The notes: generated from the letters alone by a model not told the origin. 50,960 nucleotides of DNA from Moraxellaceae bacterium (GCA_031119205.1 JAVHYF010000033.1:1-50960); one strand, 5' to 3'. Positions 803 to 24,061 are shown, numbered from the stretch's first letter. Made by a program: numbers and translations.

Positions 803-818
803 TGGCATGGCCCCTGCT
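803..818 (+). promoter_or_regulatory. candidate sigma-54 promoter (ATPase operon)
   Basis: TGGCATGGCCCCTGCT has invariant GG (804-805) and GC (816-817) separated by exactly 10 nt, and matches the -24/-12 consensus TGGCACG-N4-TTGCW except for two positions. The predicted start site near 829 lies just before the SD (845-849) and GTG start at 856. Chance matches occur in GC-rich DNA, so support comes mainly from its position and from similar sites elsewhere in the window. Confidence 0.45.
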
Positions 819-855
819 AACTGTGCTCCGAGCATCGTTCAATCGGAGGCCGGTC

Positions 856-1707
856 GTGAGCCAGGCAGCAGTTGCAAATTCCAGCGTGGTCGCCCCCAGT
901 GGCACCCTGAGTTTCCAGAACATCCGCAAGCAGTACGACGTGAAGGGTGAAGTCCTGCAGGTGCTGGACGGCATCAATCTCGAAGTGAAGCCGGGCGAGT
1001 TCGTCAGCATCGTCGGCAGCAGTGGTTGCGGAAAGTCCACGCTGCTGCGGCTGGCCATCGGCCTGGACGACGAGTACCAGGGCGACATCCTGCTCGACGG
1101 CGAGCGCATCCGTGGCACCAGCCTCAAGCGTGGCATCGTATTCCAGGAGCATCGCCTGTTCCCGTGGCTGACGGTGGAGCAGAACATCGGCGCGGCGCTG
1201 CAGAACTCCGACCTGTCCGATGCTGCCAAGCGCAAGGCCATCCAGGACCACGTCGACCTGGTGGGCCTGCAGGGTTTCGAGAAGGCCTATCCGCACCAGC
1301 TCTCCGGCGGCATGTCGCAGCGTGTGGCGATTGCGCGCGGCCTGGTGAACCGTCCGGAAATCCTGTTGCTGGACGAACCCTTCGGTGCGCTGGACGCATT
1401 GACCCGCGCCAACCTGCAGCAGGAGCTGCAGCGCATCTGGCAGACCGAGAAGATCACCATGATCCTCGTTACCCACGACGTGGAAGAAGCGGTGTTTCTC
1501 GGCGACCGCATCGTCGTCATGCAGCCGCGCCCGGGGCGCATCAAGCGCATCGTGCCGGTGCCCGTGCCGCATCCGCGCAACCGTCACGACCACGAGCTCA
1601 ACCGCATCAAGGAGGACGTGCTGCGCGAGTTCAGCCATCTGCCGCCGGATCAACTGGTGGAGGCGAGGCCGGAGCCGCGCGCGCAGGATCTCGTGTTCGC
1701 CTGGTAA
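856..1707 (+). CDS. sulfonate-type ABC transporter ATP-binding protein
   Basis: An SsuB/TauB-family ATPase of 283 aa that would power import of sulfonates or related anions. Visible motifs are Walker [13 protein letters not shown] signature LSGGMSQR, Walker [13 protein letters not shown] and the H-loop VTHDVEEA. The start is GTG 856, preceded by GGAGG at 845-849; an in-frame ATG at 802 lies inside the candidate promoter and has no SD. The ATPase is separated from its likely partners: matching binding proteins and two permeases sit about 10 kb away (9211-13996). The methyltransferase gene begins 5 nt after its stop. Confidence 0.92.
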
Positions 1708-1712
1708 GCGCC

Positions 1713-2525
1713 GTGCCCCCCAGCCTCCAACTCGATTCGGCCGAGCTGGCCGAGAAGTACGACAGCGTCAGCGACAAGCAGTACCAGCACGGTCTGCTCC
1801 TGCTCGATGATCTCGCCGTCCAGCCCGGCCAGCGCGTGCTGGACATCGGCTGTGGCACTGGCCGCCTGGGCGAGCACGTGGCGAGCGAACGCGTCGGGCC
1901 GCGCGGCGAGGTGGTGGGTATCGACCCGCTGCCACTGCGCATCGACATTGCGCGCCGCCGTGCTTCCGCCAATCACCATGTCAGCGTGGGGCGTGCGGAG
2001 GATCTGTCGGCTTTCGCCGATGCAAGCTTCGACGTCGTCTACCTCAACAGCGTCTACCACTGGCTGCCGGACAAGCGCAGCGTGCTGGCCGGCGTGCGAC
2101 GCGTGCTGAAACCGGGCGGTCGCCTGGGCATCAGCGTGGCCTCGCGCGAGCGCCCGCATGACGTGCAGCGCGTGCTGATCGATGCGCTGGCCAGTCATGC
2201 GCTGAACAGCGCCGTGGTGAATGGCAGTACCCCGCATCGAGTCAGCGCGGCCGAGCTCACCGAGCAACTGGACGCCGCCGGGCTCCTGCTGGAGCGACTC
2301 GAGCTGCGTCGCTTCGCGGATCATTTCCCCGACGTGGAGTCGGTGCTGGATTTCTACTTCGCGAGTTCCTTCGGCAACTTCCTCACCGACTACCTGCCGG
2401 ACGTGCGCGCCAGGGTGCTGGACACCTTGCAGGCGCGCCTGCTGGCGCGACGCGGGCCGCAGGGCATCCTGCTGCACCGGAACCTGTTCTTCCTCGTGGC
2501 GTCCGCACCGCAGGACGACCGCTGA
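1713..2525 (+). CDS. class I SAM-dependent methyltransferase
   Basis: A 270-aa methyltransferase. Motif I VLDIGCGTG (about residues 42-50) binds SAM. An acidic residue after the second strand (GIDPLPLRIDIA) and a VLKPGG post-motif follow, as in UbiE/Methyltransf_11 proteins. The start GTG 1713 lies 5 nt after the ATPase stop, so the two are surely cotranscribed; its SD is weak. The substrate cannot be read from the sequence. The operon position suggests a small sulfur or thiol compound, but that is inference. The C-terminal 80 residues are helical and not typical of any one subfamily I can name. Confidence 0.85.
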   Translation: MPPSLQLDSAELAEKYDSVSDKQYQHGLLLLDDLAVQPGQRVLDIGCGTGRLGEHVASERVGPRGEVVGIDPLPLRIDIARRRASANHHVSVGRAEDLSAFADASFDVVYLNSVYHWLPDKRSVLAGVRRVLKPGGRLGISVASRERPHDVQRVLIDALASHALNSAVVNGSTPHRVSAAELTEQLDAAGLLLERLELRRFADHFPDVESVLDFYFASSFGNFLTDYLPDVRARVLDTLQARLLARRGPQGILLHRNLFFLVASAPQDDR

Positions 2526-2532
2526 CGCCCCA

Positions 2533-2570
2533 GCAAAGCGCTGCGCAGCGCTTTGCGCTGGACTGTTTTT
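2533..2570 (+). terminator. perfect palindrome, possible terminator
   Basis: 2533-2544 and 2545-2556 form a 24-nt perfect palindrome containing AAAGCGC, followed by TTTTT at 2566-2570. It lies in the 74-nt gap between the methyltransferase and the GST. It may attenuate the operon or act as a REP-like element, since its core resembles the repeat at 9082-9185. Confidence 0.5.
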
Positions 2571-2599
2571 CCACACCCACACAACAAGGATCCATCTCC

Positions 2600-3220
2600 A
2601 TGCCGAAGCTGTATGTCGCAAAGGGCGCCTGCTCGCTGGGCGCGCATGTCGTGCTCAAGGAACTGGGCATCGCCCACGAGATCGTCAAGGTGCCGCTGCG
2701 TCAGCCCGACTCGCCGATCTTCAAGGTCAATCCGCTGGGCCGCGTGCCGACGCTGGTGACGGACGATGGCGAGGTCATCACCGAGAATGCGGCGATCCTG
2801 CCGTACCTGGCCGATCTCAAGCCCGAGGCCGGCCTCTTCGCGCCCGCTGGCAGCGTCGAGCGTGCGCGCATCCAGGAATGGATCGGCCTGGTGAATTCGG
2901 ATCTGCATCCGGCGTTCCGCGCGGTGAACCGTCCCAACCTGTTCCACCCGGACGAGGCGCAGTTTCCCGCCGTGCGTGCGCAGGGCCTGACGCGCCTGCG
3001 CGATCTGCTGTCGGCGATCCAGCGCAAGCTGGAGGGCAAGACCTGGGCGATCGGGGAACGCTTCACGGTGGCGGATGCCTACCTCGGCGTCTTCATCGGC
3101 TGGCTGCCGCGTGCCGGCATCGACGCCGCGAAGGACTACCCGGGCCTCGCTGCCTACGGCGACCGCTACCATGCGCGTAGTGCGGTGAAGGCCGCGCTGA
3201 CCGTCGAAAGTACTGACTGA
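2600..3220 (+). CDS. glutathione S-transferase, beta-class-like
   Basis: A 206-aa cytosolic GST. The N-terminal thioredoxin fold begins MPKLYVAKGACSLGAH, with the Cys at residue 11 equivalent to the beta-class catalytic Cys. The cis-Pro segment GRVPTLV and ENAAILPYL bind glutathione. The C-terminal helical domain carries FTVADAYLGV, the usual N-capping box. AAGGA at 2585-2589 supports ATG 2600. Beta-class GSTs conjugate or remove glutathione from electrophiles. Here the neighbours (ABC ATPase, methyltransferase, reductase) suggest a role in organosulfur breakdown, which is inference. Confidence 0.9.
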   Translation: MPKLYVAKGACSLGAHVVLKELGIAHEIVKVPLRQPDSPIFKVNPLGRVPTLVTDDGEVITENAAILPYLADLKPEAGLFAPAGSVERARIQEWIGLVNSDLHPAFRAVNRPNLFHPDEAQFPAVRAQGLTRLRDLLSAIQRKLEGKTWAIGERFTVADAYLGVFIGWLPRAGIDAAKDYPGLAAYGDRYHARSAVKAALTVESTD

Positions 3221-3235
3221 TGCAACGGAGCCTGC

Positions 3236-3826
3236 ATGCCTGAACGCCTCGATGATCGTGCCCTGGACCAGTTGTTCCGCCAGGCGCGCACCTATCCTGC
3301 CTTCCTGCCGCGCGCCATCGACGACGCGACGATCCGCGAGCTGTACGAGCTGCTGAAATGGGGGCCGACGGCCTTCAACGCGCAGCCGGGCCGTTACCTG
3401 TTCGTGCGCTCCAGGGAGGCGAAGGAGAAGCTCGCGCCAGCACTGTCGTCCGGCAATCGCGACAAGACGCTGGCGGCACCGCTGACCGTCGTGTTCGCGT
3501 GGGACACGCAGTTCCCCGAACACCTGACGACCCAGTGGGACAAGCCCAGTGCCAAGGCACTGTTCGACGACACGCCCGCGCTGGTGGAGCCGACAGCACT
3601 GCGCAGCGGTAACCTGCAGGCGGCCTACCTGATCGTCGCAGCGCGTGCGCTGGGGCTGGACGTGGGGCCGATGTCCGGCTTCAAGCCGGACGTGGTGAAC
3701 GAAGCCTTCTTTCCGGAGGGCCGCTGGAAGGCCAACTTCCTCGCCAACATCGGTTATGGAGATCCCTCGAAGCTAGCGCCGCGTGGTCCCCGTCTGGGCT
3801 TCGACGAGGTTGCGCGTATCGTTTGA
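3236..3826 (+). CDS. RutE/HadB-like nitroreductase-family reductase
   Basis: A 196-aa FMN-dependent reductase, the same length as E. coli RutE (malonic semialdehyde reductase). It shares the family features LKWGPTAFNAQPGRYLFV near residues 40-57, SGNLQAAYLI, and the C-terminal GYGDPSK...FDEVARI. ATG 3236 follows GGAG after a 15-nt gap from the GST. No other rut pyrimidine-degradation gene is present, so it probably reduces another aldehyde or electrophile. Its last 54 nt overlap the end of the convergent serine hydrolase gene. Confidence 0.85.
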   Translation: MPERLDDRALDQLFRQARTYPAFLPRAIDDATIRELYELLKWGPTAFNAQPGRYLFVRSREAKEKLAPALSSGNRDKTLAAPLTVVFAWDTQFPEHLTTQWDKPSAKALFDDTPALVEPTALRSGNLQAAYLIVAARALGLDVGPMSGFKPDVVNEAFFPEGRWKANFLANIGYGDPSKLAPRGPRLGFDEVARIV

Positions 3827-5017
3827 CGCTTCGCTCTCCGCGTCGGCACGGCTGATCAGCACATCCGACACAGCCTTGCCGACGCGCTGGAACACCACGC
3901 CGGCTTCCGTGCGGTCGTTGAGATCCGAGGCGCAGGTCGCCACCACGATGGCCTTAGCGATGTCCTGCGGGTTGATCACCGCCATGTGGCAGGCGCGCCG
4001 GTGCTGGGTGCCGGTCTTGTGGATGATCATCTCGCTCTTGGGGATGCCGCCTTCGAGGCGGTAATCGCCGCGGCGGCCGTACTTCATCATCTTGAACAGG
4101 GTCTGGGTGCTTTGCGCGGACAACAGCTTGCCGCGCACCAGTTGTTCCAGCATGTCGCCGTAGCCTTGCAGCGTCGCGGTGTTCATGTCGCGCTGGTAGT
4201 AGCGGGCGTAGGCCTCGCCGAAGCTCTTCGCCTTCAGGTCCGCCTCGCGCAAGTCCAGTTCTCGGCGGATCGCGGCCACGCGTTGCGGGCCGATGTCCGG
4301 GCCGGCCACCTTGATGAGTTGCTGGTTGTCCAGCTTGCGCGCGTCCGGGTGCAGCTCGGCGTAGATCTCGCGGCGCACCGTCACGAAGTCGGTCAGCTGC
4401 ACCTGCTTGCCCAGCAGAGATTTCGCGGTGCCGTTCAGGTTGTCGATGCCGGCAGTGCGGATCAGCAGGTTGGCGGCCGTGTTGTCGCTGACACCCAGCA
4501 TGCGCGTCAGCAGCGACTCCACGCTGTACTGGCTCCCGTTCTCCGCCCACAGCAGTTCGCCGGCACCATCCACCTTGTCCTGTTCCTGCAGGGTCAGCGG
4601 GCTTTGCAGGCCGAGCTTGCCGGCATCCACCTGGCGCAGCACGGTGATGGCGATCGGCACCTTGACGGTGGAGCTGAGGTACCAGGGCTGGTCGGCGGCG
4701 TGGGAGTAGGTCTCGCCGGTCGCCAGACGCTTCACATAGACGCCGAGCTTGCCGTTGGACTGCCGGTCGATGCGCTGAATCTGCTGGCCCAGCTCGTCCT
4801 GCCAGCCTTGTGCCGCCGCAGGTTCAGCGTGCGGGATCAGTACGCTGACTGCCAGCAGGGCGGGCAGCAGGCTGCGCAGCAACGGGCCGCTGCTTGCTGG
4901 CGGGGACGTTTCCGCCGGCACGGGGCGCAGGCGCCACGGCAGGTGGGACGGCGGGCGCGACAGGTACTGCGGCGGACAGGACTTCGTCTCGCGAGAGCGG
5001 GGGGCAGGCGGGTTCAT
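3773..5017 (-). CDS. class A beta-lactamase-like serine hydrolase (copy 1)
   Basis: A 414-aa exported serine hydrolase of the PenP/COG2367 type. It has S116-x-x-K119 (SSTVK), SDN at 177-179 and KTG in IHKTGTQ. I do not see a canonical omega-loop ExxLN. ATG 5017 has a good SD (AGAGGA), but this start puts a ~45-residue leader before the hydrophobic signal segment (LLRSLLPALLAVSVL) and overlaps the upstream gene by 194 nt. GTG 4921 is an alternative that gives a normal signal peptide. It could be a beta-lactamase, a peptidoglycan enzyme or an esterase. It is a paralogue of the next gene. Confidence 0.85.
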   Translation of the reverse strand: MNPPAPRSRETKSCPPQYLSRPPSHLPWRLRPVPAETSPPASSGPLLRSLLPALLAVSVLIPHAEPAAAQGWQDELGQQIQRIDRQSNGKLGVYVKRLATGETYSHAADQPWYLSSTVKVPIAITVLRQVDAGKLGLQSPLTLQEQDKVDGAGELLWAENGSQYSVESLLTRMLGVSDNTAANLLIRTAGIDNLNGTAKSLLGKQVQLTDFVTVRREIYAELHPDARKLDNQQLIKVAGPDIGPQRVAAIRRELDLREADLKAKSFGEAYARYYQRDMNTATLQGYGDMLEQLVRGKLLSAQSTQTLFKMMKYGRRGDYRLEGGIPKSEMIIHKTGTQHRRACHMAVINPQDIAKAIVVATCASDLNDRTEAGVVFQRVGKAVSDVLISRADAESEASNDTRNLVEAQTGTTRR

Positions 5018-6194
5018 CGGGGATTCCTCTCGTTATGGCACCGGAACGGCACAGCGCTACGCCGACGTCACGCAATGCGCGCTCGGCACGTTCCAGCGAA
5101 AGCTCGCCGCGCGCACAGGCGGCGATGACGACACGTTGCACATGCATGCCGTGCGCAATCTTGATGACGCCGCTATCGCAGATGCGGCGGCGCTGGGTTC
5201 CGGTCTTGTGGGCGAACTGCGCGCCGGGCAACAGGCCGGCCTTGATGCGATGCGTGCCGGTGGCGGTGCGACGCATCACCCCCAGCAGGTAGTCGGTCTG
5301 CTTCGCGGACAGCATCTCGCCGTCCGCCAGCGCTTCCAGCAGATCGCCGTAAGTGGACAGGCGCGCGCTGTTCACACCGCTGGCGTAGTAGGCGGAGAAG
5401 GCCTCGTCCAGCGATGACCGCCTGAACTTCGCGACCGGTGTTTCGGTGAGGCGCGCCAGCAGGGCGAGGCGGTCCTTGTCCCGCTGCTGGCGATGCAGCA
5501 GCAGCAGGTCATTGCCGGCCAGGCGCTCGGCGGCGGGCGTCAGCTCGCCATAGACGAGACGTCGCACGTCGCCCAGCGTGGTGATGCGGCCGAAGTCGTC
5601 ACCACCGATCTCGCTGGCCACGTGGTTCACGTTACGGATGCCCACCAGCTCGATCAGCATGTCGCTGGCCGTGTTGTCGCTGTAGATGATCATCTGCTCC
5701 AGCAGGAAGCGGACGCTGAGCTGCGCGCCGACGCGCTGGCGGTTGGTCAGGCCGGCGCCGTCCACGTAGTCGGCGGCGCGCAGGGTCATCTTGCTGTCCA
5801 GATCGATCAGGCCGGCGTCGACACCGCGTAGCACCGCGATGGCGATCGGCACCTTCACGGTGGAAGCGAGATACCAGGTTTCGCTGGCGCGATAGCGCGC
5901 GGTCTCACCGGACTCCAGGTCGCGCACGTAGACGCCGATGTCCGCGCGATGCTCCGCGTCCACCACGTCCAGCGATTTTTCAAGGCGTTTGGTCCAGGCC
6001 GCGGGCGGCGCATCAGCCGGTGTACCGGCGGTCGTGACGGCGGCGCTGAAGCTCGCGGTGACCGCGACTACAAGCGCGCGAAGCCTGCGCGCAGTGGGAA
6101 ACGGCACATGTATGGGTGTGCGTATGGAGGCAGCGAGCACGCGCGCAGCGGCGTCGCGATGCGATGGAGAGAGGGGAATACTCAGTGGATGCAC
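4824..6194 (-). CDS. class A beta-lactamase-like serine hydrolase (copy 2)
   Basis: A 456-aa paralogue of the downstream gene with S111-x-x-K114 (ASTVK), SDN at 172-174 and KTG in AHKTGTQ. A hydrophobic signal segment ALVVAVTASFSAAV follows TARRLR near residue 40. The annotated start is GTG 6194, with AGGA about 10 nt upstream. GTG at residue 30 would give a shorter leader. After the catalytic domain there is a ~60-residue Pro/Ala-rich tail, and this tail is the part that overlaps the next gene in another frame. Tandem duplication is likely. Confidence 0.82.
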   Translation of the reverse strand: MHPLSIPLSPSHRDAAARVLAASIRTPIHVPFPTARRLRALVVAVTASFSAAVTTAGTPADAPPAAWTKRLEKSLDVVDAEHRADIGVYVRDLESGETARYRASETWYLASTVKVPIAIAVLRGVDAGLIDLDSKMTLRAADYVDGAGLTNRQRVGAQLSVRFLLEQMIIYSDNTASDMLIELVGIRNVNHVASEIGGDDFGRITTLGDVRRLVYGELTPAAERLAGNDLLLLHRQQRDKDRLALLARLTETPVAKFRRSSLDEAFSAYYASGVNSARLSTYGDLLEALADGEMLSAKQTDYLLGVMRRTATGTHRIKAGLLPGAQFAHKTGTQRRRICDSGVIKIAHGMHVQRVVIAACARGELSLERAERALRDVGVALCRSGAITRGIPDEPACPPLSRDEVLSAAVPVAPAVPPAVAPAPRAGGNVPASKQRPVAAQPAARPAGSQRTDPAR

Positions 6195-6358: not shown

Positions 6359-7747
6359 TCAGGAAACCGTGTCCGTCGCCTTCGTCAGCGACTGCGCAAG
6401 TCCGAGGCGACGCGCGACGGTGAACTGGTTGGCCGGCCGCGCCAGCCCCAGGTTTTCGCGCAGCGTTTTGCCTTCGTACGCGGTGCGGAACAGGCCGCGG
6501 CGCTGCAGCTCCGGCACCACGAGGTCGACGAAATCATTCAACGATTCCGGCAGCACCGGCGGCATGACGTTGAAGCCGTCGGCGGCCTCGTTCTCGAACC
6601 ATTCCTGGATCTGGTCGGCGATGGTCTGCGGCGTGCCCACCACCACCCAGTGACCGCGCGCACCCGCGAGGTATTCGTACAACTGGCGCACCGTGAAGCC
6701 TTCGCGCTTCGCCAGCGTCAGCACCACGTTCTGGCGGCTGTTGCGGCCCTTTTCCAGCTCGGGGTAGTAAGGCGGCGGTGCGTCGAGGTTCCACTTCGTC
6801 ACGTCCTCACCGGGCCAGAACTTGGCGATCTCACCGAGACCCACGGAGGGATGGATCAGGCCCTGCAGCTTCGCCCACTTTGCCTGTGCCTCTTCCTCGG
6901 TGCGGCCGATCACCGGCGAGATGCCGGGCAGTACCAGCAGCTCTTCCGGGCGGCGACCGTACTTGGCCATACGGCCCTTGATGTCGCGGTAGAAGGATTG
7001 CGCTTCGGCGAGGCTGGTCCATGCGGTGAAGATGGCTTCCGCGGTGGCGGCCGCCAGCTCGCGGCCGGGTTCGCTGGAGCCCGCCTGCACGATCACCGGG
7101 TAGCCCTGCGGCGGGCGCTCGATGTTCAGCGGGCCGCTCACCTTGAAGAACTTCCCTTCATGATTGATCTTGTGGAGCTTCGCCGGATCGAAGTACACGC
7201 CGCTCTCCGCGTCGCGCTTGAAGGCGTCGTCCTCGAAGCTGTCCCACAGGCCCTTCACGACGTCCACGAACTCATGCGCGCGCTCGTAGCGCAGCTCCGG
7301 CTCCGGATGCCTGTCATAGCCGAAGTTGCCGAACACCGTCTCGGCGCTGGTCGTCACCACGTTCCACGCGGCGCGGCCCTTCGAGATGTGATCCAGCGAG
7401 GCGAACTTGCGCGCCAGCAGGAAGGGGTCTTCGTAGGTGGTGGAGGCGGTGGCGACGAAGCCGATGTGCTTCGTGGCGGTGGCGAGTGCGGCCCACAGCG
7501 TGACAGGCTCGAAATGCGACACGCGGCCCTGGCGGCTGAAGGCCTCCGGGTCGTCGATCCAGCGGATGCCCGGGCTGTCGGCGACGAACACCTGGTCGAA
7601 CAGGCCGCGCTCGGCGGTCCTCGCGACCTCGATGTAGTGATCGATGTTCACGCCGGAGTCGATCTGCGAACCAGGGTGGCGCCAGGCGGCGATATGGTGG
7701 CCGGTGGCCATGATGAATGCGCCGAGGCGCAGCTTGCGTTGGCTCAT
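6359..7747 (-). CDS. NtaA/SnaA/DszA-family flavin-dependent monooxygenase
   Basis: A 462-aa member of the bacterial luciferase-like (LLM) monooxygenases, which use reduced FMN from a separate reductase. Family signatures visible are LGAFIMATGHHIAAWRHP at the N terminus, SKGRAAWNVVTT near residue 125, and YPVIVQAGSSEPGRELAA. The length matches NtaA/SnaA/DszA/DmoA proteins, which cleave C-N or C-S bonds. The TauD-like gene upstream ends 64 nt before it on the same strand, so they are probably cotranscribed. Nitroreductase-type genes nearby could supply FMNH2. The exact sulfur substrate is unknown. Confidence 0.92.
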   Translation of the reverse strand: MSQRKLRLGAFIMATGHHIAAWRHPGSQIDSGVNIDHYIEVARTAERGLFDQVFVADSPGIRWIDDPEAFSRQGRVSHFEPVTLWAALATATKHIGFVATASTTYEDPFLLARKFASLDHISKGRAAWNVVTTSAETVFGNFGYDRHPEPELRYERAHEFVDVVKGLWDSFEDDAFKRDAESGVYFDPAKLHKINHEGKFFKVSGPLNIERPPQGYPVIVQAGSSEPGRELAAATAEAIFTAWTSLAEAQSFYRDIKGRMAKYGRRPEELLVLPGISPVIGRTEEEAQAKWAKLQGLIHPSVGLGEIAKFWPGEDVTKWNLDAPPPYYPELEKGRNSRQNVVLTLAKREGFTVRQLYEYLAGARGHWVVVGTPQTIADQIQEWFENEAADGFNVMPPVLPESLNDFVDLVVPELQRRGLFRTAYEGKTLRENLGLARPANQFTVARRLGLAQSLTKATDTVS

Positions 7748-7781: not shown

Positions 7782-7820
7782 GGATTCAGAACGAGGATTC
7801 AGAACGAGGATTCAGAACGG
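7782..7820. repeat. three tandem copies of a 13-nt unit
   Basis: GGATTCAGAACGA occurs at 7782-7794 and 7795-7807, and with its last base changed to G at 7808-7820. The third copy contains the TGA stop (7812-7814) of the TauD-like gene on the minus strand, so the other two copies are duplications of that gene's 3' end. Confidence 0.9.
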
Positions 7821-8819
7821 GCGGGCGCCAGCGAGGCTCACGCGCTTGAGCACGCGGCGCTCGCTGGCGTCGAAAGCGGTGCGCGCATGCAGCGTGGCCT
7901 GGTTGTCCCAGTGCACGATGTCGCCGACTTCCCAGCGGTGCGTGTACTGGTACTTGGCCTGCGACAGGTGGGCGCGCAGGTGGGCGATCAGCGCGATGCC
8001 GACCGCTGGCTCCACGCCCACCAGTTCCACTTCGGAATGGGTGGCGAGGAACAGGATGCGACGGCCGCTGCGTGGATGGGTGCGCACCAGCGGATGCGGG
8101 AAGCCGTGACCCAGTGGTGTCACGTCCGGTGTGCGGTAGAGCGGGCGCTTCTGCCCGCTGGCGCGCACGAAGGGGTTATAGGTGATGAGCTGCAGGCCCT
8201 CGATGCGGCGCTGCGTTTCCTCGTCCAGATCGTCCCAGGCCCGGGCAAGGTTGTACCAGGTGGTGTCGCCGCCCACGCGCGGTACTTCCTGCGCATACAG
8301 CAGCGATCCGGCCGAGGGCAGCGGCGTCCACTGATGGTCGATGTGCGGATACAGCTCGCCGTTGCCGGTGTAGCCGCCTTCCACGTTGGCTACCGGCACT
8401 ACGTCAGGCGCGCTGCCACCGTGATCCGAAGAGCCCAGCACCGGTACGTCGGCGGGCGAGTGGAAGACCGATCCGAAGTGCGTGGAGAAGGCCAGCAACT
8501 GTTCATCGCTCAACACCTGTTGCTTGAAGATCAGGATGCCGTTATCGTCCAGCGCGCTCTGCAGGCGCTGCACCAGTGCAGCGGAGAGTGGACGACGTGC
8601 GTCCAGCCTGCGCACCACGGCGCCGACACCACCGCCGGTGGGTGTGATGCTGATGTCGTCAGCAAGCTGCGGCGGAAAATCACTGTGCGCGGCGGCATGT
8701 ACCGCCAGCGACAACTGGGTGAACAGCGGCCGCACTGCGAAGCGCGTGTTGTCTAGCGGCGCTGGGCTCGGCGCAACGAGCACAGGGCTGGTGGCGACGG
8801 GTTCGGCAAGGGTAGTCAT
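7812..8819 (-). CDS. TauD/TfdA-family dioxygenase, divergent
   Basis: A 335-aa Fe(II)/2-oxoglutarate dioxygenase. The iron ligands are seen as HID (in YPHIDHQW) and the distal His in WDNQATLHARTAF; the 2-oxoglutarate Arg lies near the C terminus (RRVLKRVS). ATG 8819 has AGGAG 8 nt upstream. About 60 N-terminal residues precede the fold. The HPxY taurine-contact motif of true TauD is absent, so the substrate is probably another sulfonate, sulfate ester or unrelated acid. A candidate sigma-54 promoter lies at 8900-8915. The monooxygenase gene follows on the same strand. Confidence 0.88.
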   Translation of the reverse strand: MTTLAEPVATSPVLVAPSPAPLDNTRFAVRPLFTQLSLAVHAAAHSDFPPQLADDISITPTGGGVGAVVRRLDARRPLSAALVQRLQSALDDNGILIFKQQVLSDEQLLAFSTHFGSVFHSPADVPVLGSSDHGGSAPDVVPVANVEGGYTGNGELYPHIDHQWTPLPSAGSLLYAQEVPRVGGDTTWYNLARAWDDLDEETQRRIEGLQLITYNPFVRASGQKRPLYRTPDVTPLGHGFPHPLVRTHPRSGRRILFLATHSEVELVGVEPAVGIALIAHLRAHLSQAKYQYTHRWEVGDIVHWDNQATLHARTAFDASERRVLKRVSLAGARPF

Positions 8820-8915: not shown

Positions 8916-9081
8916 GTTTCCCGTCTGGCGTGCTGGATTGCTGCGCAGGGCGCACGACGCCGTGCTCCGACGCGTCATCAGGCATGGGCGTGAGCGGAAT
9001 CGCTGGCGGCGGCGCTGCGGCAGATGCAGCAGCGTCGCCATCAGCCTGTGCGGAATCCGACAGCGATGCCCAGGGCATTGC

Positions 9082-9185
9082 GTAGGTCGGAAAAGCGCAG
9101 CGCCTTCCGACAGGTGTGTGGCGGGAGTTACTGGCCTTGATTGGTCGGATGGCGTGTCGGAAGGCGCTGCGCTTTTCCGACCTAC
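9082..9185. repeat. REP/BIME-like inverted repeat, 31-bp arms
   Basis: 9082-9112 and 9155-9185 are exact reverse complements (arm starts GTAGGTCGGAAAAGCGCAGC) separated by 42 nt. Similar GTAGGTCGGAAAAGCGCAG elements are frequent between genes in gammaproteobacteria. It lies between the binding protein's stop and the TauD-like promoter, within the ~390-nt gap 8820-9210, where I see no gene. It may terminate or stabilise transcripts. Confidence 0.9.
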
Positions 9186-9210
9186 GAGTGCTTATCCGAC
9201 CGACCGCCTT

Positions 9211-10455: not shown

Positions 10456-10471
10456 TGCAACTAGTGGTCCA
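10456..10471 (-). promoter_or_regulatory. candidate sigma-54 promoter (binding protein A)
   Basis: On the minus strand TGGACCACTAGTTGCA has GG-N10-GC and a perfect TTGCA -12 box; the -24 box TGGACC deviates from TGGCAC. The start site would be near 10445, giving a ~70-nt leader to ATG 10374. Confidence 0.5.
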
Positions 10472-10817
10472 CTTGCGGATGGCATTCCGGACTACATCGC
10501 ATGGCGTGGCCGGGTTGCTGCGCGCGCAGCACGGCAGGGTGTGGCGCTGCCTCGCACCCGACAGAACGCGACCCGGGATGTCGGTCAAGCAGCAGGTGGA
10601 GCGCCGCATCGCGTGACTGCATGGCCCGCGGTGTGCCCCGGGTGTATCCCGGGTTTGTCCATATACGGCGTGCGCGATGCGGATATGCGTTCTGCTTCTG
10701 AATGGTTTGCAGCAGCGCCTTGTGCTGATGCTGCGTGACGCGCACGTCGTGCGCAGCCATGTCCGGATGACTCGCTGCAAAGCCTTGCTGCGCGGTGATT
10801 GCGCGATCTGCGAAGAG

Positions 10818-10834
10818 TTGGCACGCAGGTTGCG
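10818..10834 (+). promoter_or_regulatory. candidate sigma-54 promoter (binding protein B operon)
   Basis: TTGGCACGCAGGTTGCG contains GGCACG and TTGC with invariant GG (10820-10821) and GC (10832-10833) spaced by 10 nt. Only the last consensus base (W) is missed. The start site near 10845 precedes the SD (10900-10904) of the gene at 10912. The 346 nt between this and the divergent site hold several short palindromes but no gene; enhancer-binding sites would be expected there. Confidence 0.65.
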
Positions 10835-15013: not shown

Positions 15014-15841
15014 ATGAGCGACAACAGGAACGCCAGCACCGGTTTTGCAGCGGCAGTGCAGCCGGCCGATCCGGCTACGGTCATCCGTACGGATGGCGAA
15101 GGCCTGGTTACCGGCGAGATCAGTATTCCGCTGGCTGATGGCAAACTGCCGGGCAGCCTGCCGGCATACCGGTCAGCGCCGGCAGGCGCGGGACCCCACC
15201 CGGTGATCCTGGTCATCCAGGAAATCTTCGGCGTGCATGAGCACATCCGTGATATGACGCGGCGGCTGGCGAAGCTGGGTTATCTCGCCATCGCGCCCGA
15301 GCTGTACTTCCGCCAGGGCGATCCGGCCAAGGCGCCGGACATCGACACCCTGCGCGAGACCATCGTCAGCAAGGTGCCGGACCGCCAGGTGCTGGACGAC
15401 CTCGACGCCACGCTGGCCTGGGCGGACGCCAACGGCGGTGATGCGCAACGCATCGGCATCACCGGCTTCTGCTGGGGCGGACGCATCACCTGGCTGTACG
15501 CCGCTCGCCAGCCACGCATCAAGGCCGGCGTGGCCTGGTATGGCCGCCTGAATGGTGTGGCCTCAGAAGTGACGCCGCTGCATCCCATCGATGTGGTGTC
15601 GCAACTCAAGGCGCCGGTGCTGGGTCTGTACGGCGGGCAGGACGCAGGCATTCCGCTGGAGGCGGTGGCCCATTTCCGCGAAACGCTGAAAGGCGCGCAC
15701 AGCCCGTCGGAGATCTATCTCTACCCCGAGGCCCCGCATGCCTTCTACGCCGATTACCGGCCCAGCTACCGGCCGCTGGACGCGGCGGATGGCTGGCAGC
15801 GCCTGCAGGCGTGGTTCGTGCGGCACGGCGTGGCGCCGTGA
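15014..15841 (+). CDS. dienelactone hydrolase family protein
   Basis: A 275-aa alpha/beta hydrolase. The nucleophile elbow is GFCWGG (Cys, as in dienelactone hydrolase). VILVIQEIFGVHEHIRDM is the typical N-terminal segment, with the Asp in YGGQDAGIP and the His in PEAPHAFYADYRP completing the triad. It is about 40 residues longer than minimal DLH. SD AGGGA precedes ATG 15014. The GNAT gene overlaps its stop by 4 nt. The substrate is unknown. Confidence 0.92.
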   Translation: MSDNRNASTGFAAAVQPADPATVIRTDGEGLVTGEISIPLADGKLPGSLPAYRSAPAGAGPHPVILVIQEIFGVHEHIRDMTRRLAKLGYLAIAPELYFRQGDPAKAPDIDTLRETIVSKVPDRQVLDDLDATLAWADANGGDAQRIGITGFCWGGRITWLYAARQPRIKAGVAWYGRLNGVASEVTPLHPIDVVSQLKAPVLGLYGGQDAGIPLEAVAHFRETLKGAHSPSEIYLYPEAPHAFYADYRPSYRPLDAADGWQRLQAWFVRHGVAP

Positions 15842-19771: not shown

Positions 19772-19872
19772 TAGTAGGGTGGGGTCGGACGAGTGTTGAA
19801 ATCCTGGCGACAACCCGCCGCCGGAGCATGGACGTTACGACGACGGTGGGTTGCTTCGCGAACCCACCCTAA
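19772..19872. repeat. ~100-bp nested palindromic repeat, copy 1
   Basis: Outer arms GTAGGGTGGG (from 19774) and AACCCACCCTA (ending 19871) enclose inner arms CAACCCGCC and GGTGGGTTG. The right end GGTGGGTTGCTTCGCGAACC is itself a hairpin. It has the same plan as the element at 22046-22150 and lies beyond the ferredoxin gene's stop, so it may terminate that operon. Confidence 0.8.
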
Positions 19873-19885
19873 GGGCCGTGCCCGC

Positions 19886-20212
19886 TCAGTACTTGTTCAG
19901 CACCCGGAAGCTCTGGTCGGTGCTGCGCTGGCTTTCGCTGCCCTTGGTCCAGCCCACCGCGCGGCGGTAGCCGCCCAGGGTGCCGGCATCCGCGAGCAGC
20001 GATTCGTCGGCGATGCCGACGCGGTCGGCATCCGGTGACACGTACAGCGCGTCCACCGGGCAGTACAACTCGCACATGAAGCAGGTCTGGCAGTCGTCCT
20101 GTCGCGCGATCACCGGCGGGCTGTCGGGCACGGCGTCGAAGACGTTGACCGGGCAGGCGCTGACGCAGAGGTTGCAGGCGATGCAGCGCGATTCGCTGAC
20201 CAGCTCGATCAT
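19886..20212 (-). CDS. 2[4Fe-4S] ferredoxin-like protein
   Basis: A 108-aa electron-transfer protein. Two cluster motifs are complete: CIACNLCVSACP near residue 10 and CQTCFMCELYCP near residue 41. A ~45-residue tail follows that has no further Cys. The ATG overlaps the upstream flavoprotein stop (ATGA), so the two are coupled and probably form a complex like AprB with AprA. It is shorter than true AprB. Confidence 0.93.
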   Translation of the reverse strand: MIELVSESRCIACNLCVSACPVNVFDAVPDSPPVIARQDDCQTCFMCELYCPVDALYVSPDADRVGIADESLLADAGTLGGYRRAVGWTKGSESQRSTDQSFRVLNKY

Positions 20213-21846
20213 GCGGCCTCCTTCGTCAGTGCTTCGGGTTGTGGCGTGGTGGCGGGGCGGGTACTCGTCCAGATTTCATCCAGCCCGCCTGCGGTGATGA
20301 GGTGGTGCTGTTTCGGGTCCAGCCCCGGATGCTCCTCGCGCTTATGCATGCCGCGTGTTTCGGTGCGGGCCAGCGCGCTGCGGTACATCCAGCGCGCGGT
20401 GGCAGTCATCGCGGCGGCCTCGCGGGCGCGGATCACCCGCGTGTTGTCGGCGCCGCGGCTGTGGCGTTGTGCGTGCCACAGCGCGTCCAGTCTGCCCAGC
20501 GAATCCTGCAGGCGCTCGGCGTGGCGGAAGTAGTTGCGCTCGTACGGAAACACCTCGGCCTGCACGGCACTGGCGACTGCCGAAGGGTCCAGCACCTGGC
20601 CACCGGTGTCGCGCACCGCGGTGCTGCCGGCGCGATGCACATGGCGCGCCACATGGTTGCTGCCCAACTGGCGTGCGTAGTCGGCGGCACCCGCACCGGC
20701 CCAGGCCCCTGAAGACATCGCCCACGCGGCGTTGTGGCTGCCACCACCGGTGAAGCCGCCGCAGATGAGTTCGCGCGTGGCGGCATCACCCGCCGCATAC
20801 AGGCCGGGCACGCTGGTGGCGCAGGTCTTGTCGGTGATGCGCAGGCCGCCCGTGCCGCGCACCGTGCCTTCCAGACGCAGCGTCACCGCGAAGCGCTGGG
20901 TGAAGGGGTCGATGCCGGCGCGGTCGAAAGGCAGGAAGAAGTTGGGCTGGGCCAGGCGCAGCGCGTCATGCAGATCCGGCGCGGCTTGATCCAGCACCGC
21001 GTACACCGGGCCTTGCAGCAGCGCCCTGGCGATCTTCGAGCGGCTGTGGCCGCTGGCACCTTCAATGACGCTGCCGTCCTCGCGCAGGAAGCGCGCGTAG
21101 CGGTAGAAGGCGGTCTTGGTCACCGACGAGAAAGCGGGTGCAATGCCATAGGCATTGGAGAACTCCATGCTCGTCAGTTCAGCACCGACTTCGGCCCCCA
21201 TCAGCAGGCCGTCGCCGGTCAGCACGTTGCAGCCCAGGGCGCGCGACAGGAAGGCACAGCCACCGGTGGCGATCACCACCGCACCGGCACGCACCAGCCA
21301 GCGCTCGCCGGCCTGGCGGCTGATGCCGCTGGCGCCGGCCACCGCGCCCTTGTCGTCCACCAGCAGTTCCAGCGCCGGGCTGTGGTCCAGGATGCGCACG
21401 CCAGCACGCTTCACACGGCTGCGCATCAGGCGCATGTACTCCGGCCCCTGCAGTGACCCGCGCCGTGGCGTGCCACCTTCATCCCGCGGGAAGGGGTAGC
21501 CCCATTCGTCCAGCTGAAGCATGTTGTCCCAGGTCTGGTCGAGCACGCGGCGCATCCACTCGCGGTCGGCCAACCAGCCGCCCAGTTGCTCGCGCCCGGC
21601 CATCGCCTCCTCGCGCAGTGCCGGGTCGGGCGGGATGTACCACACCCCGTTGCCGGACGGCGCCGCCGCGCCGGAGGTGCCGCAGAAACCCTTGTCGGCG
21701 AGTACCACGCGCGCCCCCAGGCTTGCCGCGCGCACGGCCGCCCAGGTGCCGGCCGGGCCACCACCGATGACGAGCACGTCGGCGACATGCTCGCGCGTGC
21801 CAAGGTGGTCGGCGACGCTGGCGAAGTTGGAGTCGATGCTGCCCAT
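20209..21846 (-). CDS. AprA/fumarate-reductase-like FAD flavoprotein
   Basis: A 545-aa FAD-dependent oxidoreductase. The N-terminal dinucleotide fold is DVLVIGGGPAGTWAAVRAA (about residues 24-42). The late FAD segment is GLYAAGDAATRELICGG. The overall layout and C-terminal helical domain resemble adenylylsulfate reductase AprA or fumarate-reductase flavoproteins, but I do not see the fumarate reductase HPTG motif, and no sat or other dissimilatory genes are near. ATG 21846 has AAGGA upstream, and a consensus sigma-54 promoter lies 46-61 nt before it. With the ferredoxin it may reduce an organosulfur compound. Confidence 0.85.
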   Translation of the reverse strand: MGSIDSNFASVADHLGTREHVADVLVIGGGPAGTWAAVRAASLGARVVLADKGFCGTSGAAAPSGNGVWYIPPDPALREEAMAGREQLGGWLADREWMRRVLDQTWDNMLQLDEWGYPFPRDEGGTPRRGSLQGPEYMRLMRSRVKRAGVRILDHSPALELLVDDKGAVAGASGISRQAGERWLVRAGAVVIATGGCAFLSRALGCNVLTGDGLLMGAEVGAELTSMEFSNAYGIAPAFSSVTKTAFYRYARFLREDGSVIEGASGHSRSKIARALLQGPVYAVLDQAAPDLHDALRLAQPNFFLPFDRAGIDPFTQRFAVTLRLEGTVRGTGGLRITDKTCATSVPGLYAAGDAATRELICGGFTGGGSHNAAWAMSSGAWAGAGAADYARQLGSNHVARHVHRAGSTAVRDTGGQVLDPSAVASAVQAEVFPYERNYFRHAERLQDSLGRLDALWHAQRHSRGADNTRVIRAREAAAMTATARWMYRSALARTETRGMHKREEHPGLDPKQHHLITAGGLDEIWTSTRPATTPQPEALTKEAA

Positions 21847-21891
21847 GTTGTTGTCCTTTCGATGCGGAGATCGATGTGTGCCGCTCGCTGT

Positions 21892-21907
21892 TGCAACCGG
21901 CGTGCCA
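21892..21907 (-). promoter_or_regulatory. sigma-54 promoter (flavoprotein-ferredoxin operon)
   Basis: On the minus strand TGGCACGCCGGTTGCA matches TGGCACG-N4-TTGCW at every defined position, with GG-N10-GC spacing. The predicted start near 21881 gives a ~35-nt leader to ATG 21846. This is the best sigma-54 site in the window. Confidence 0.8.
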
Positions 21908-22045
21908 GTGCTGGCGAGGCTTGTCATCGCAGGCTTCTGCGGATGCTCATGGCGGGATGGCTGCACGGAATGCGACAACGCGATGCGGGATGTGCTGCGA
22001 GGTGAGCAGAGCCGGTGCGTGTCGCTAACGCCCGAAGCAGCGAGC

Positions 22046-22150
22046 GTAGGGTGGGTTCGCGAAGCAACCCACCATCGGCGCAACGAAGACGCCAGGCGTA
22101 GATGAGAGGCTGAGCGGTGGGTTGTCGCTATCGCTCCGAACCCACCCTAC
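22046..22150. repeat. ~105-bp nested palindromic repeat, copy 2
   Basis: Outer arms GTAGGGTGGGTTCG (22046-22059) and CGAACCCACCCTAC (22137-22150) are exact complements. Inner arms CAACCCACC (22065-22073) and GGTGGGTTG (22116-22124) also pair. The same family as 19772-19872, so the two copies bracket the flavoprotein-ferredoxin operon. It fills most of the 348-nt gap 21847-22194. Confidence 0.88.
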
Positions 22151-22194
22151 AACGTGCTATGGCGTGCTACGGATTCCGGCCTTTTACCCCACGA

Positions 22195-23979
22195 TCAGAC
22201 CGTCACCTTCGTGCCATCGAAGCGCGTGAAGCTGAAGCCGTCGAAGAGCTCGCGATAGGTGTCGCGCTCGTCGCGCAGGATGCTGATCGCGAGTTCCTCC
22301 GCCTGCGGCAGCGACGAGCCGGCGTCGGAGCGCCAGTGGATGCCGCCCCAGTTGCGGCCCCAGCCGAGGTTGGCGGCCAGCTTGTTCAGCTCGCCGCCGA
22401 CGGTCAGCGCCGGGCCGGTGTAGGGCACCAGCTTCGTCGGGTCGTTCGGGTCCGGCTGCACCGGGTCCGGGATCACGAAGTTCTCGTCGAAGAAGGCCTT
22501 CAGCAGCGTGGCGTGGATGGCCGCGGCGGAGGATGCTCCGCCGGGGTAGGACGAGTGATAGGGCGCGCCATCGTGATAGGCATGCGACAGCGTGTGCAGC
22601 TTGTGCAGGCGGTGGCTGCGCGCCAGTGCTTCGGATTTCAGGAAGTCGTCATGCAGCGGAATATCGCTGATGCCGCCGGCCAGGCGCTGGTGCGCGAGGT
22701 TGGAGATCGCCTCGGGGCGCGGCGTGCGATGCACGAACCACTTCTGCCAGTAGTTGGCCCGGATCTCGCGCGTGGTCGCCAGCGGCAGCAGCGACTGCAC
22801 GAAGGGGGCACCGAAGCTGGCGTTGGCGCCCGTGGTCACCTTGTACTTCAGGTAAGGGTTGCTGGGCGTGAGCGGTGCGCCGATGCCGCCGACCACCAGC
22901 GGGTTGTTGCTGCGTGGCGTGGACAGCAGTTGCGACGCTGCCCAGAAACCGGGTGCGCCGCCGCGCGAGTACTCGGCGAGATCGCGGCCGGTGGTGAGGT
23001 AACGCAGCTTCGGGTCGAAGCGGATCACGCGGTTGTGCGTCTTGCCGCTGATGTTGGCGATCAGCTCCTCCGGGTTCAACAGGAAGTCATTGCCCGGCAG
23101 TTGCGTGCGGATCTGACCGCTGATGTTCTGCAGGCCGTAGGGCACGTCGCGCAGCAGGAACTGCGAGATGTAGGGGCCGGTCAGCACGCCCACCGGCGCG
23201 AGGGTGCGCGCCTTGCGCGGGTCTGCCGGGTCCACGTAACGCGCGGTGCCACGGAACAGCAGGGATGGCGTCACCTTGCCATCGGCATTGCGCGGGCCGG
23301 TGTAGCCGGGCAGGCGCGACAGCTCGGCGGATGCGGCCAGCAGCAGTTCGTTGCGGGTGTCGTCGCGGTACTCGCCGAAGGGTACGTCGCGCAACAGGCT
23401 CTGCCAGTAGATCTCCACCGCTTCCGCAGCCTTCTCCTGGCTCGACAGCGTGGGTGCCGGCGGAATGGCGATCTGGTGCGGGCCGAGGCCGGTGAGGTTG
23501 AGCGACAGCGTGCCGACCGGGTTCACCAGCTTGCGCGTGCCGCCCAGGGTGATCTTCTCGAAGTCCGCCACCTCGCCGGTGCGCAACGCGGCCTTCAACT
23601 GGTCCCAGGCCTTGAGGTCCACTTCACCGCGCGCGTTGTGCGGCAGGCCGCGGGTGTCGCTGCCGATCTTGTTGGCATAGCGGTCTTCGTCGCCGTTGGC
23701 GAGGTGGTTGGGCACAGGCTGGTCGTAATTGGCCTTGGCACGTGCTACACGCACGCGCAGGGTGTTGCGGCGGAGCTGTTCGTTGAGGTCACCGCCGCTT
23801 TGATTCAGGACGCGCAGGTCGGGCACCGCAGCGTCGCCCTGTGCGTGGGCGCTGCCGCTGGCAGCCAGTGCGCCGCCGACGGCGAGTGAGCCGGCCTTGC
23901 CGAAGAAGCTGCGACGGGCGGTGGAAACGGCGTCGTCCGCTTGGAGTGGGGTCTGCGTGTCGTGCTCGGGCTTGCTCAT
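22195..23979 (-). CDS. vanadium haloperoxidase homologue, Tat-exported, atypical active site
   Basis: A 594-aa protein colinear with algal/bacterial vanadium bromoperoxidases. Vanadate-pocket residues are visible as Lys413 and Arg421 in KWFVHRTPRPE, and His548 in GIHWRSD, the ligand position. The central SYPSGHA motif reads SYPGGAS: the vanadate-contact Ser is Gly480 and the acid-base His is Ala482. A twin-arginine signal (ARRSFFGKAG...ASGSAHAQG, residues 21-48) directs export. ATG 23979 has AGGGAG upstream. It may be a haloperoxidase with changed chemistry, an acid phosphatase-like enzyme, or a non-redox homologue. Confidence 0.9.
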   Translation of the reverse strand: MSKPEHDTQTPLQADDAVSTARRSFFGKAGSLAVGGALAASGSAHAQGDAAVPDLRVLNQSGGDLNEQLRRNTLRVRVARAKANYDQPVPNHLANGDEDRYANKIGSDTRGLPHNARGEVDLKAWDQLKAALRTGEVADFEKITLGGTRKLVNPVGTLSLNLTGLGPHQIAIPPAPTLSSQEKAAEAVEIYWQSLLRDVPFGEYRDDTRNELLLAASAELSRLPGYTGPRNADGKVTPSLLFRGTARYVDPADPRKARTLAPVGVLTGPYISQFLLRDVPYGLQNISGQIRTQLPGNDFLLNPEELIANISGKTHNRVIRFDPKLRYLTTGRDLAEYSRGGAPGFWAASQLLSTPRSNNPLVVGGIGAPLTPSNPYLKYKVTTGANASFGAPFVQSLLPLATTREIRANYWQKWFVHRTPRPEAISNLAHQRLAGGISDIPLHDDFLKSEALARSHRLHKLHTLSHAYHDGAPYHSSYPGGASSAAAIHATLLKAFFDENFVIPDPVQPDPNDPTKLVPYTGPALTVGGELNKLAANLGWGRNWGGIHWRSDAGSSLPQAEELAISILRDERDTYRELFDGFSFTRFDGTKVTV

Positions 23980-24045
23980 GGATGCTCCCTGGTCGATTGA
24001 TGGCCCGGCCAGCGTCGTTGCCGCACCGGTGCGCACGGCCTTCAT

Positions 24046-24061
24046 GGCAAGCGGCGTTCCA
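24046..24061 (-). promoter_or_regulatory. candidate sigma-54 promoter (haloperoxidase homologue)
   Basis: On the minus strand TGGAACGCCGCTTGCC has GG-N10-GC, one mismatch in the -24 box and TTGC in the -12 box. The start site near 24035 leaves a ~55-nt leader. The remaining ~350 nt of this divergent gap (to 24408) hold no gene I can support. Confidence 0.55.

Follow-up and report, generated by a model that had tools for sequence, protein, structure and literature searches.

Can organosulfur genes that stand in separate transcription units be joined into one regulon by the promoters in front of them? The question is raised by contig C89 (JAVHYF010000033.1; 50,960 bp, hereafter the window, meaning the whole stretch analysed) of a 4.63 Mb draft genome (G000) of 66% GC, in which six sigma-54-type -24/-12 sites precede genes for an SsuB-like transport ATPase, a TauD-like dioxygenase, two substrate-binding proteins (SBP1 and SBP2), an AsfA-like flavoprotein and a homologue of vanadium haloperoxidases. 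A preliminary description of the window had gathered these sites into one putative regulon and pointed to the control of dimethyl sulfone use by RpoN and SfnR, established in Pseudomonas. From the comparisons described below we infer with good confidence, the binding, the activation and the sulfur signal included, that the six sites are RpoN promoters of one organosulfur-scavenging regulon whose likely activator is an SfnR-family enhancer-binding protein encoded on contig C77, here called EBP_A.

All six sites exist, and their coordinates had been given to within one base in the preliminary description; every one carries the GG-N10-GC core, 38-82 bp before a start codon (Table 1). Sites were scored against TGGCACG-N4-TTGC, with mismatches counted over 15 bases relative to TGGCACGNNNNTTGC. 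Counting matches to this consensus was dropped as evidence on its own, since there is no excess in the window at up to three mismatches (218 matches anywhere, 259 expected from shuffling) or in the genome at up to one (150 matches, 154 for the reversed pattern, which served as chance control for genome-wide and start-linked counts). The exact consensus is enriched in the genome, with 10 occurrences against 3 for the reversed pattern, two of the ten resembling one duplicated stretch. All ten are intergenic according to our own gene caller, those before SBP2 and asfA among them, as are five of the 20 one-mismatch places fetched. As to position, a site with at most two mismatches precedes five of the six claimed starts and one of the 35 other window starts listed, a list from which starts inside operons are mostly omitted. 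A control of 227 transcription-unit starts, taken from stretches of this genome that were chosen by position and total 400 kb, has a site in 0, 5 and 20 cases at up to one, two and three mismatches, respectively, and the reversed pattern in 3 and 13 cases at up to two and three; the claimed starts differ from this control at up to two mismatches with a Fisher p of 2.7e-7. The scoring of the whole genome that had been suggested, with genic and intergenic sites compared, gives no enrichment at loose thresholds and a positive outcome for the exact pattern and for position before starts. The sites exceed chance as a set, not each site singly.

The genome encodes RpoN (TIGR02395, 471 bits, cut-off 277) and has 14 matches to PF00158, and among the ten strongest, which were read, three are short proteins that lack a receiver domain: EBP_A, a second protein named EBP_B and a protein of 323 amino acids (L039). 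EBP_A matches NtrC-type models over their AAA+ and C-terminal parts only and has the layout of the SfnR family, namely an AAA+ sigma-54 domain and a Fis-type helix-turn-helix, no recognised receiver or other sensor domain and a length of about 360-380 residues. In a maximum-likelihood tree, which took in no Pseudomonas SfnR of proven function, all SfnR-like activators tested fall into one clade with 100/100 support, in which EBP_A is sister to a protein from L110, a locus of a related Rhodocyclales metagenome-assembled genome (G019) of the same family as the window genome; EBP_B sits on a long branch within the clade and the L039 protein outside it. EBP_A shares the clade with activators linked to SfnG-, SfnB- and MsuD-type genes. 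The sigma-54 contact loop reads GAYTGA in EBP_A and its relative in genome G064 and GAFTGA in 12 other clade members, while a motif search found neither form in EBP_B and the protein of Pseudomonas sp. MYb185.

Relatives of EBP_A (E value at most 1e-108, 54-68% identity) occur in eight of 101 related genomes, its own included, the next match being at 9e-84 and 46%. The best SBP2 relatives in other genomes lie in two, G019 and G038, and EBP_A is present in both; in L110 of G019 its orthologue shares a locus with ssuB, SBP1 and SBP2. In Variovorax ginsengisoli (L247) the relative adjoins SsuD (628 bits, cut-off 518), SfnG (611 bits, cut-off 383) and an SfnB/DszC-like protein that stays below cut-offs, and in G064 (L236) the activator lies near SsuE, a sulfate-binding protein and NtaA. 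Labelled SBP, NtaA or TauD genes are found in seven of 14 activator-bearing loci, and two further loci hold SsuD (L242) or a sulfate-binding protein (L239). In silico support for RpoN control through an SfnR-type activator, as first proposed, comes from the RpoN gene, the activator itself, and the shared palindrome and co-occurrence across genomes treated below. The link to dimethyl sulfone was not borne out: no protein of the genome reaches the SfnG cut-off (best 156 bits against 383), so that the evidence does not indicate dimethyl sulfone as the substrate and the regulon is not classed by it.

Some features of the activator genes are recorded here in their own right. No sigma-54 site lies upstream of EBP_A in the window genome, unlike the activator gene of Rhizobacter, which has a two-mismatch sigma-54-type site upstream (L156:9796, minus strand), so that autoregulation may vary. 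Two very similar proteins of 71 residues, which by eye resemble molybdopterin-binding Mop/TOBE proteins, are encoded just before EBP_A on C77 (L105:17426-17641) and in an SsuD cluster on contig C69 (L284:3472-3687). SfnR-family genes also occur near genes for a family 2A encapsulin shell (L236:3707-4618) and its cysteine desulfurase cargo (L239:13007-15830), the shell in L239 and everything in L240:5246-9536 being assigned by eye; this nanocompartment is reportedly tied to sulfur metabolism.

If one activator serves these promoters, a common binding site should lie upstream of them, and palindromes were searched for at no more than 300 bp from the -24 box. The pattern TGCTG-N6-CAGCA was derived from 17 external promoters before organosulfur or activator-linked genes, with no window sequence among them; it occurs exactly in 7 of the 17 (resampled sequences, in 20 rounds, never gave more than 2) and in 11 if one mismatch is allowed. 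Three loci (L127, L131, L156) were left out of the 17 for want of coordinates and are counted in a systematic external set, made up of all sites with at most one mismatch before labelled organosulfur genes at activator-positive loci, where the palindrome precedes seven of 11 promoters, two of them exactly. In the window genome twelve promoters were chosen without regard to the palindrome, each having a sigma-54 site in front of a gene of organosulfur use or of the SfnR family (EBP_B in one case). With up to one mismatch the palindrome is found at nine of these twelve (at eight separate sites, and including five of the six promoters claimed), at none of seven other exact sigma-54 promoters (an eighth, which shares a stretch with another, was omitted) and in 12 of 213 control upstream regions. 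Spacers of 5, 7, 8 and 10 give 0-1 of the twelve. The spacing N9 occurs exactly at 5/12 promoters (four sites), at 0/213 controls and at 0/17 external promoters, and N6 or N9 with up to one mismatch covers 11/12. We infer that TGCTG-N6-CAGCA is the binding site of the SfnR family; a search of the literature by title returned nothing on an SfnR binding-site palindrome or on sigma54 together with alkanesulfonate and an enhancer-binding protein. The exact copy before the haloperoxidase homologue might also serve the divergent VOC-family gene. A third exact N6 palindrome in the window, at 5485, lies inside the reading frame 4824-6194.

The same association is seen across genomes. A contig scan gave 80 loci with SBP2 relatives, and EBP_A was found in 17 of the 60 genomes searched among those with such relatives (5/11 plus 13/50, one shared). 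The simple gene caller used is wrong at some GC-rich loci, for which reason the comparison was redone with tblastn-anchored starts. Sites with up to one mismatch precede organosulfur genes in 11/63 cases in EBP_A-positive genomes and in 1/129 cases in EBP_A-negative ones (p 2.2e-5; 11/78 against 1/129 if activator genes are included), while the reversed pattern gives 0 and 0 (first run, 79 and 128 genes). If a site with up to two mismatches and a palindrome are required together, the figures are 13/63 with EBP_A and 0/128 without (p 2.2e-7). Left out were 41 genes from 18 loci that carry no activator information (0/41 at up to one, 1/41 at up to two mismatches).

Several points weigh against a single regulon under EBP_A. 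The protein is encoded outside the window and has GAYTGA in its contact loop, a second SfnR-family protein, EBP_B, blurs which of the two binds, the activator loci L237, L238 and L245 show no organosulfur neighbour, and 43 of the 60 genomes tested have the same transport genes without EBP_A. The site before SBP1 carries three mismatches. Within 300 bp SBP2 has an N9 palindrome with one mismatch only, the exact N6 at 287 bp falling just outside the limit; an NtaA gene on contig C45 has a promoter site and no palindrome, and the SsuD cluster on C69 holds an N6 palindrome with one mismatch despite having no sigma-54 site. The N9 spacing was spotted post hoc among ten spacers and is the weaker evidence, its five exact promoters resting on four sites, and a spacer of 12 is likewise found at 5/12 promoters at up to one mismatch (control 12/213). 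The longer form TTGCTG-N6-CAGCAA, with up to one mismatch, occurs at 24 places genome-wide against 7 for its reversed pattern; two of the 24 are window sites and 13 of 15 others fetched lie in genes (7 more were not fetched), so that this form is mostly genic and unspecific by itself, and the five-base form was used in combination with position. The 17 external promoters were picked by eye (12 of 22 sites plus five). Finally, the genomes compared are related and not independent samples, so that the p values are too favourable, and of the 31 loci with an activator 12 had been fetched for it or for a neighbouring match, 12 of the 13 double matches coming from other loci.

The alternative that survives best, although we regard it as unlikely, is that only the sites before SBP2, asfA and the haloperoxidase homologue are real, those before ssuB, TauD and SBP1 being chance matches in GC-rich DNA and their units using sigma-70 with a LysR-type activator such as CysB. 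With two or three mismatches the three sites are of a quality that the control starts also reach, and the SsuD cluster on C69 manages without such a site. That the weaker sites could be chance in GC-rich DNA had been allowed from the outset, and it holds for the SBP1 site insofar as this is weak taken alone. Each weak site, however, has a candidate palindrome with no or one mismatch 44-125 bp upstream, the SBP1 site an exact one at 44 bp. In L110 the orthologues of SBP1 and SBP2 are also preceded by sites, that of SBP1 by a better one (TGGCCCGGCATTTGC), and the weak form TGGCATG-N4-NTGC is found again before other organosulfur genes (the ABC transporter of C77, SBP2 of L110). For the SBP1-SBP2 intergenic region, the pairwise alignment of the window with L110 contained too many gaps to yield a footprint at the level of single bases.

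A little less likely again is that EBP_B binds some of the enhancers in place of EBP_A, possibly those with N9. It belongs to the SfnR clade and there is an exact N9 palindrome in the region of EBP_B and the ABC transporter on C77, and exact N9 is frequent in this genome and absent from the 17 external promoters. Its long branch and the missing GAFTGA suggest that EBP_B may be an anti-activator. On the other side, N9 was chosen after the fact, and TGCTGCTG-like runs blur the spacing.

Control by another activator, for example NtrC in a nitrogen-scavenging regulon, was tested and is disfavoured to the point of being improbable. Other exact sigma-54 promoters of the genome do stand in front of genes that by eye encode amidase-like proteins and binding proteins of the amino-acid type, and strict NtrC-like palindromes (up to two mismatches) accompany two of these seven. 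The strict form occurs at none of the twelve organosulfur promoters, the SfnR-type palindrome is absent from the seven, and the sites track EBP_A across genomes. A looser NtrC pattern (up to one mismatch) separates the two groups poorly, at 3/12 and 5/7, and counts against EBP_A to that extent. That the sites are mere GG-N10-GC matches, abundant in DNA of 66% GC and devoid of regulatory meaning, is hardly credible: the window count falls below shuffles and the genome count at up to one mismatch equals its reversed control, but position before starts, the excess of exact matches, the palindromes and the association across genomes all speak against it.

Table 1. Sites, candidate enhancers and genes of the window, with the activator genes and the His-less haloperoxidase relatives; positions are those of the window unless a contig or locus is named, and mismatches refer to the respective pattern.
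Feature	Position	Strand	Remarks
Sigma-54-type -24/-12 site before ssuB	803-817	+	TGGCATGGCCCCTGC, 2 mismatches, 38 bp from GC to start codon
Sigma-54-type site before TauD-NtaA	8901-8915	-	TGGCATGCGGCATGC, 2 mismatches, 81 bp to start
Weak sigma-54-type site before SBP1	10457-10471	-	TGGACCACTAGTTGC, 3 mismatches, 82 bp to start
Sigma-54 site before SBP2	10819-10833	+	TGGCACGCAGGTTGC, 0 mismatches (exact consensus), 78 bp to start
Sigma-54 site before asfA	21893-21907	-	TGGCACGCCGGTTGC, 0 mismatches (exact consensus), 46 bp to start
Sigma-54-type site before haloperoxidase homologue	24047-24061	-	TGGAACGCCGCTTGC, 1 mismatch, 67 bp to start
Candidate enhancer, N9, exact	659-677		125 bp upstream of ssuB -24 box
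Candidate enhancer, N6, 1 mismatch	689-704		98 bp upstream of ssuB -24 box
Candidate enhancer, N6, 1 mismatch	9016-9031		100 bp upstream of TauD -24 box
Candidate enhancer, N6, exact	10516-10531		TGCTGCGCGCGCAGCA; 44 bp upstream of SBP1, 287 bp upstream of SBP2 -24 box
Candidate enhancer, N9, 1 mismatch	10696-10714		104 bp upstream of SBP2 -24 box
Candidate enhancer, N6, 1 mismatch	21993-22008		85 bp upstream of asfA -24 box
Candidate enhancer, N6, exact	24255-24270		TGCTGCGGTCGCAGCA; 193 bp upstream of haloperoxidase -24 box
SsuB/TauB-like ABC ATPase (ssuB)	856-1707	+	GTG start at 856; NCBIfam match below equivalog cut-off
Methyltransferase	1713-2525	+	after ssuB
GST	2600-3220	+	after ssuB-methyltransferase
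RutE-like nitroreductase	3236-3826	+	fourth of ssuB group
NtaA/DmoA-family FMN monooxygenase	6359-7747	-	downstream of TauD; TIGR03860 588 bits, cut-off 279.7
TauD-like 2-oxoglutarate dioxygenase	7812-8819	-	first of TauD-NtaA unit; best NCBIfam NF007104 taurine dioxygenase, E 2.4e-36, below cut-off
SBP1, SsuA-family substrate-binding protein	9211-10374	-	TIGR01728 E 6.6e-41, 140 bits, below cut-off 163.5
SBP2, SsuA-family substrate-binding protein	10912-12129	+	below equivalog cut-off
Two SsuC-like permeases	12172-13104, 13115-13996		after SBP2; below equivalog cut-offs
Nitroreductase	14085-14930		downstream of SBP2 permeases
Dienelactone-hydrolase-like protein	15014-15841		after the nitroreductase
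AsfB-like 2x[4Fe-4S] ferredoxin	19886-20212	-	Pfam Fer4 family; gene overlaps asfA
AsfA-like flavoprotein	20209-21846	-	fumarate reductase/AprA superfamily
Vanadium-haloperoxidase homologue	22195-23979	-	PDB 1qi9 E 2.7e-49
VOC-family gene (PF00903)	about 24409-24843		divergent from haloperoxidase homologue
EBP_A, SfnR-family enhancer-binding protein	C77:87672-88799		376 residues; PF00158 227 bits; no receiver/sensor domain recognised
EBP_B, SfnR-clade protein	C77, L106:4514-5632	-	372 residues; divergent from an ABC transporter preceded by a sigma-54 site
His-less relative, Aquincola	L154:14826-16565
His-less relative, Rhizobacter	L156:1-1395
His-less relative, G345	L264:8505-10292
His-less relative, Microvirga plasmid	L263:11809-13599

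The units behind these promoters are partly conserved. The order of ssuB, methyltransferase, GST and RutE-like nitroreductase is identical in L110, and that of the SBP2 group is kept there with extra genes in between. The monooxygenase and the dioxygenase, which had been listed as separate members, form one TauD-NtaA unit with one promoter, and the site does precede that unit. What had been called an AprA-like complex is, judged by gene content, better called AsfAB-like than an AprA complex of sulfate reduction: it is a pair of flavoprotein and 4Fe-4S ferredoxin genes with a paralogous pair on C77, where genes for a ferredoxin, a binding protein, a permease and an ATPase come after an asfA paralogue of 52% identity, neighbours that match the asf gene content of aromatic desulfonation. 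No close orthologue of AsfA was found outside its own genome among 101 genomes searched; the window protein is 65% identical to one of Variovorax ginsengisoli.

Two REP-like repeats lie near the promoters, namely a perfect 32-nt inverted repeat upstream of tauD (9081-9112 and 9155-9186) and a 39-nt inverted pair of 92% on both sides of asfAB (19833-19871 and 22047-22085). Elsewhere in the window two overlapping frames, 3773-5017 and 4824-6194, resemble class A beta-lactamases (by eye), and 32158-33522 encodes a PF00144 beta-lactamase/esterase-family protein.

The haloperoxidase homologue deserves separate treatment: homology to vanadium bromoperoxidases and a promoter site with one mismatch stand, while the catalytic histidine is lost. 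About 500 residues can be aligned with the bromoperoxidase 1qi9, and the Lys/Arg of KWxxHRxxRPE and the vanadate-side Arg/His of GRxxxGIHWRSD are kept. The active-site stretch SGHA reads GGAS (PSGH to PGGA; YPGGAS), so that the histidine and the serine before it are gone; the protein is therefore termed a homologue and not classed as a haloperoxidase. Relatives at an E value of at most 1e-40 occur in 10 of 399 sampled genomes of the order, its own included. All five members seen of one subfamily, namely the protein of the window and the four nearest relatives found (50-65% identity; Table 1), lack the histidine, and nine more distant ones retain it. Three of the four His-less relatives lie in organosulfur loci, two of these loci having been fetched for SBP relatives and one for the haloperoxidase itself. 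In Aquincola tertiaricarbonis one strand carries two SBP2-like genes, SsuC, SsuC, SsuB, NtaA (80% identical to the window NtaA), the homologue and TauD; in the Burkholderiales genome G345 the homologue stands between ssuC and ssuB with gaps of 24 and 13 bp, ssuD being nearby; and in Rhizobacter EBP_A and SBP1 are both found no more than 10 kb from it, a sigma-54 site with one mismatch standing before SBP1. In Microvirga no labelled organosulfur gene was found among the neighbours. The Aquincola genome has no EBP_A, so that the tie of the homologue to organosulfur use is independent of the regulator. A twin-arginine-like N-terminus, seen by eye, leads us to propose that the protein acts outside the cytoplasm on organosulfur compounds. 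More broadly, it is possible, if short of probable, that a His-less subfamily of the haloperoxidase fold has been recruited to organosulfur scavenging, here under an RpoN/SfnR-type promoter and enhancer, with organosulfur compounds and not halides as substrates, and that AsfAB in this lineage has also come under SfnR and sigma-54. By title, the literature searched offers nothing that links haloperoxidase with sulfate starvation or vanadium haloperoxidase with alkanesulfonate.

Contigs C77, C60 and C45 probably hold further parts of the regulon. There, sigma-54 sites and palindromes suggest as likely members a second asfA (asfA2) and an ABC transporter (C77), a methyltransferase gene beside a sulfatase (C60) and, on C45, TauD, with an N9 palindrome only, and NtaA, with the promoter site only. 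It does not cover all organosulfur clusters of the genome. The C69 cluster (SsuD, 607 bits, cut-off 518; SsuE, SsuA, SsuC and SsuB by eye) lacks any sigma-54 site between its genes at up to three mismatches, and a second cluster of TauD, binding protein and ABC genes in the window (35-45 kb; 34238-45799 with a three-rhodanese-domain protein and TctA) has none at up to two. On C45 an exact sigma-54 site, with no palindrome, precedes an amidohydrolase-like gene beside an MFS gene (C45:54526-57540, L006); similar genes (by eye) adjoin an SfnR-family gene in Pseudomonas sp. MYb185 (L244:3067-8458), a likeness by which this may be another organosulfur unit.

How would such a regulon work? EBP_A would bind TGCTG-N6-CAGCA, perhaps N9 too, at a distance of 44-193 bp on the upstream side of the -24 box. 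Through a DNA loop it would reach the sigma-54 holoenzyme, already in place at TGGCACG-N4-TTGC, and would hydrolyse ATP to open the promoter. Since no sensor domain is recognised in EBP_A, the switch probably lies in how much of the protein is present, and by analogy with the CysB-regulated SfnR of Pseudomonas its level would be high when sulfate or cysteine is scarce. The response would then consist of uptake (SsuB, SBP1, SBP2 and two permeases), desulfurising oxygenases (TauD and the NtaA type), the AsfAB electron-transfer pair for arylsulfonates and the haloperoxidase-like protein.

The sulfate-starvation regulon of SfnR and sigma-54 in Pseudomonas putida and P. aeruginosa (sfnFG, sfnA, msu) resembles this arrangement in its sigma-54 promoters, in an SfnR-clade activator that has no recognised sensor domain, and in organosulfur oxygenases and uptake as targets; it differs in that here there is no SfnG above cut-off and the targets are TauD-NtaA, the SBP1/SBP2 transporter, AsfAB and the haloperoxidase homologue. 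To our knowledge, such control is known mainly from Pseudomonas. The kind of control would thus be known, whereas the target set, with an arylsulfonate desulfonation pair and a His-less haloperoxidase homologue, appears to be new. The ssu and tau systems for aliphatic sulfonates share the SsuA-, SsuB-, SsuC- and TauD-family proteins of the window, which, however, stay below equivalog cut-offs; an NtaA/DmoA-type enzyme replaces SsuD, and the cluster that holds the SsuD of the genome (C69) is without the promoter. With vanadium-dependent bromoperoxidases (PDB 1qi9, 1qhb) the homologue shares an alignment over about 500 residues and the Lys/Arg and Arg/His stretches, but not the catalytic histidine. 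Like asfRABC of P. putida S-313 and Variovorax, the genome has the flavoprotein and ferredoxin pair, with binding protein, permease and ATPase following the C77 copy. The gene content described for asf aromatic desulfonation includes a LysR-type activator (PMC4267179); here, in contrast, no LysR gene was seen among those neighbours that were scanned (one lies at 31179-32468 of the window), and asfA has an exact sigma-54 promoter.

In Ralstonia solanacearum, growth of rpoN mutants on aliphatic sulfur sources is reported to be normal (PMC4676750). The absence of the activator from the 43 genomes mentioned above, among them Ralstonia sp. 25mfcol4.1 (L147/G137), is a possible reason, R. solanacearum itself lying outside the search. 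If the regulon is as proposed here, the same switch would be at work in some Betaproteobacteria, scattered among others that lack it; its enhancers would follow a predictable code, its targets would differ from those in Pseudomonas, and sulfur-scavenging genes so far unrecognised could be found directly by their promoters.

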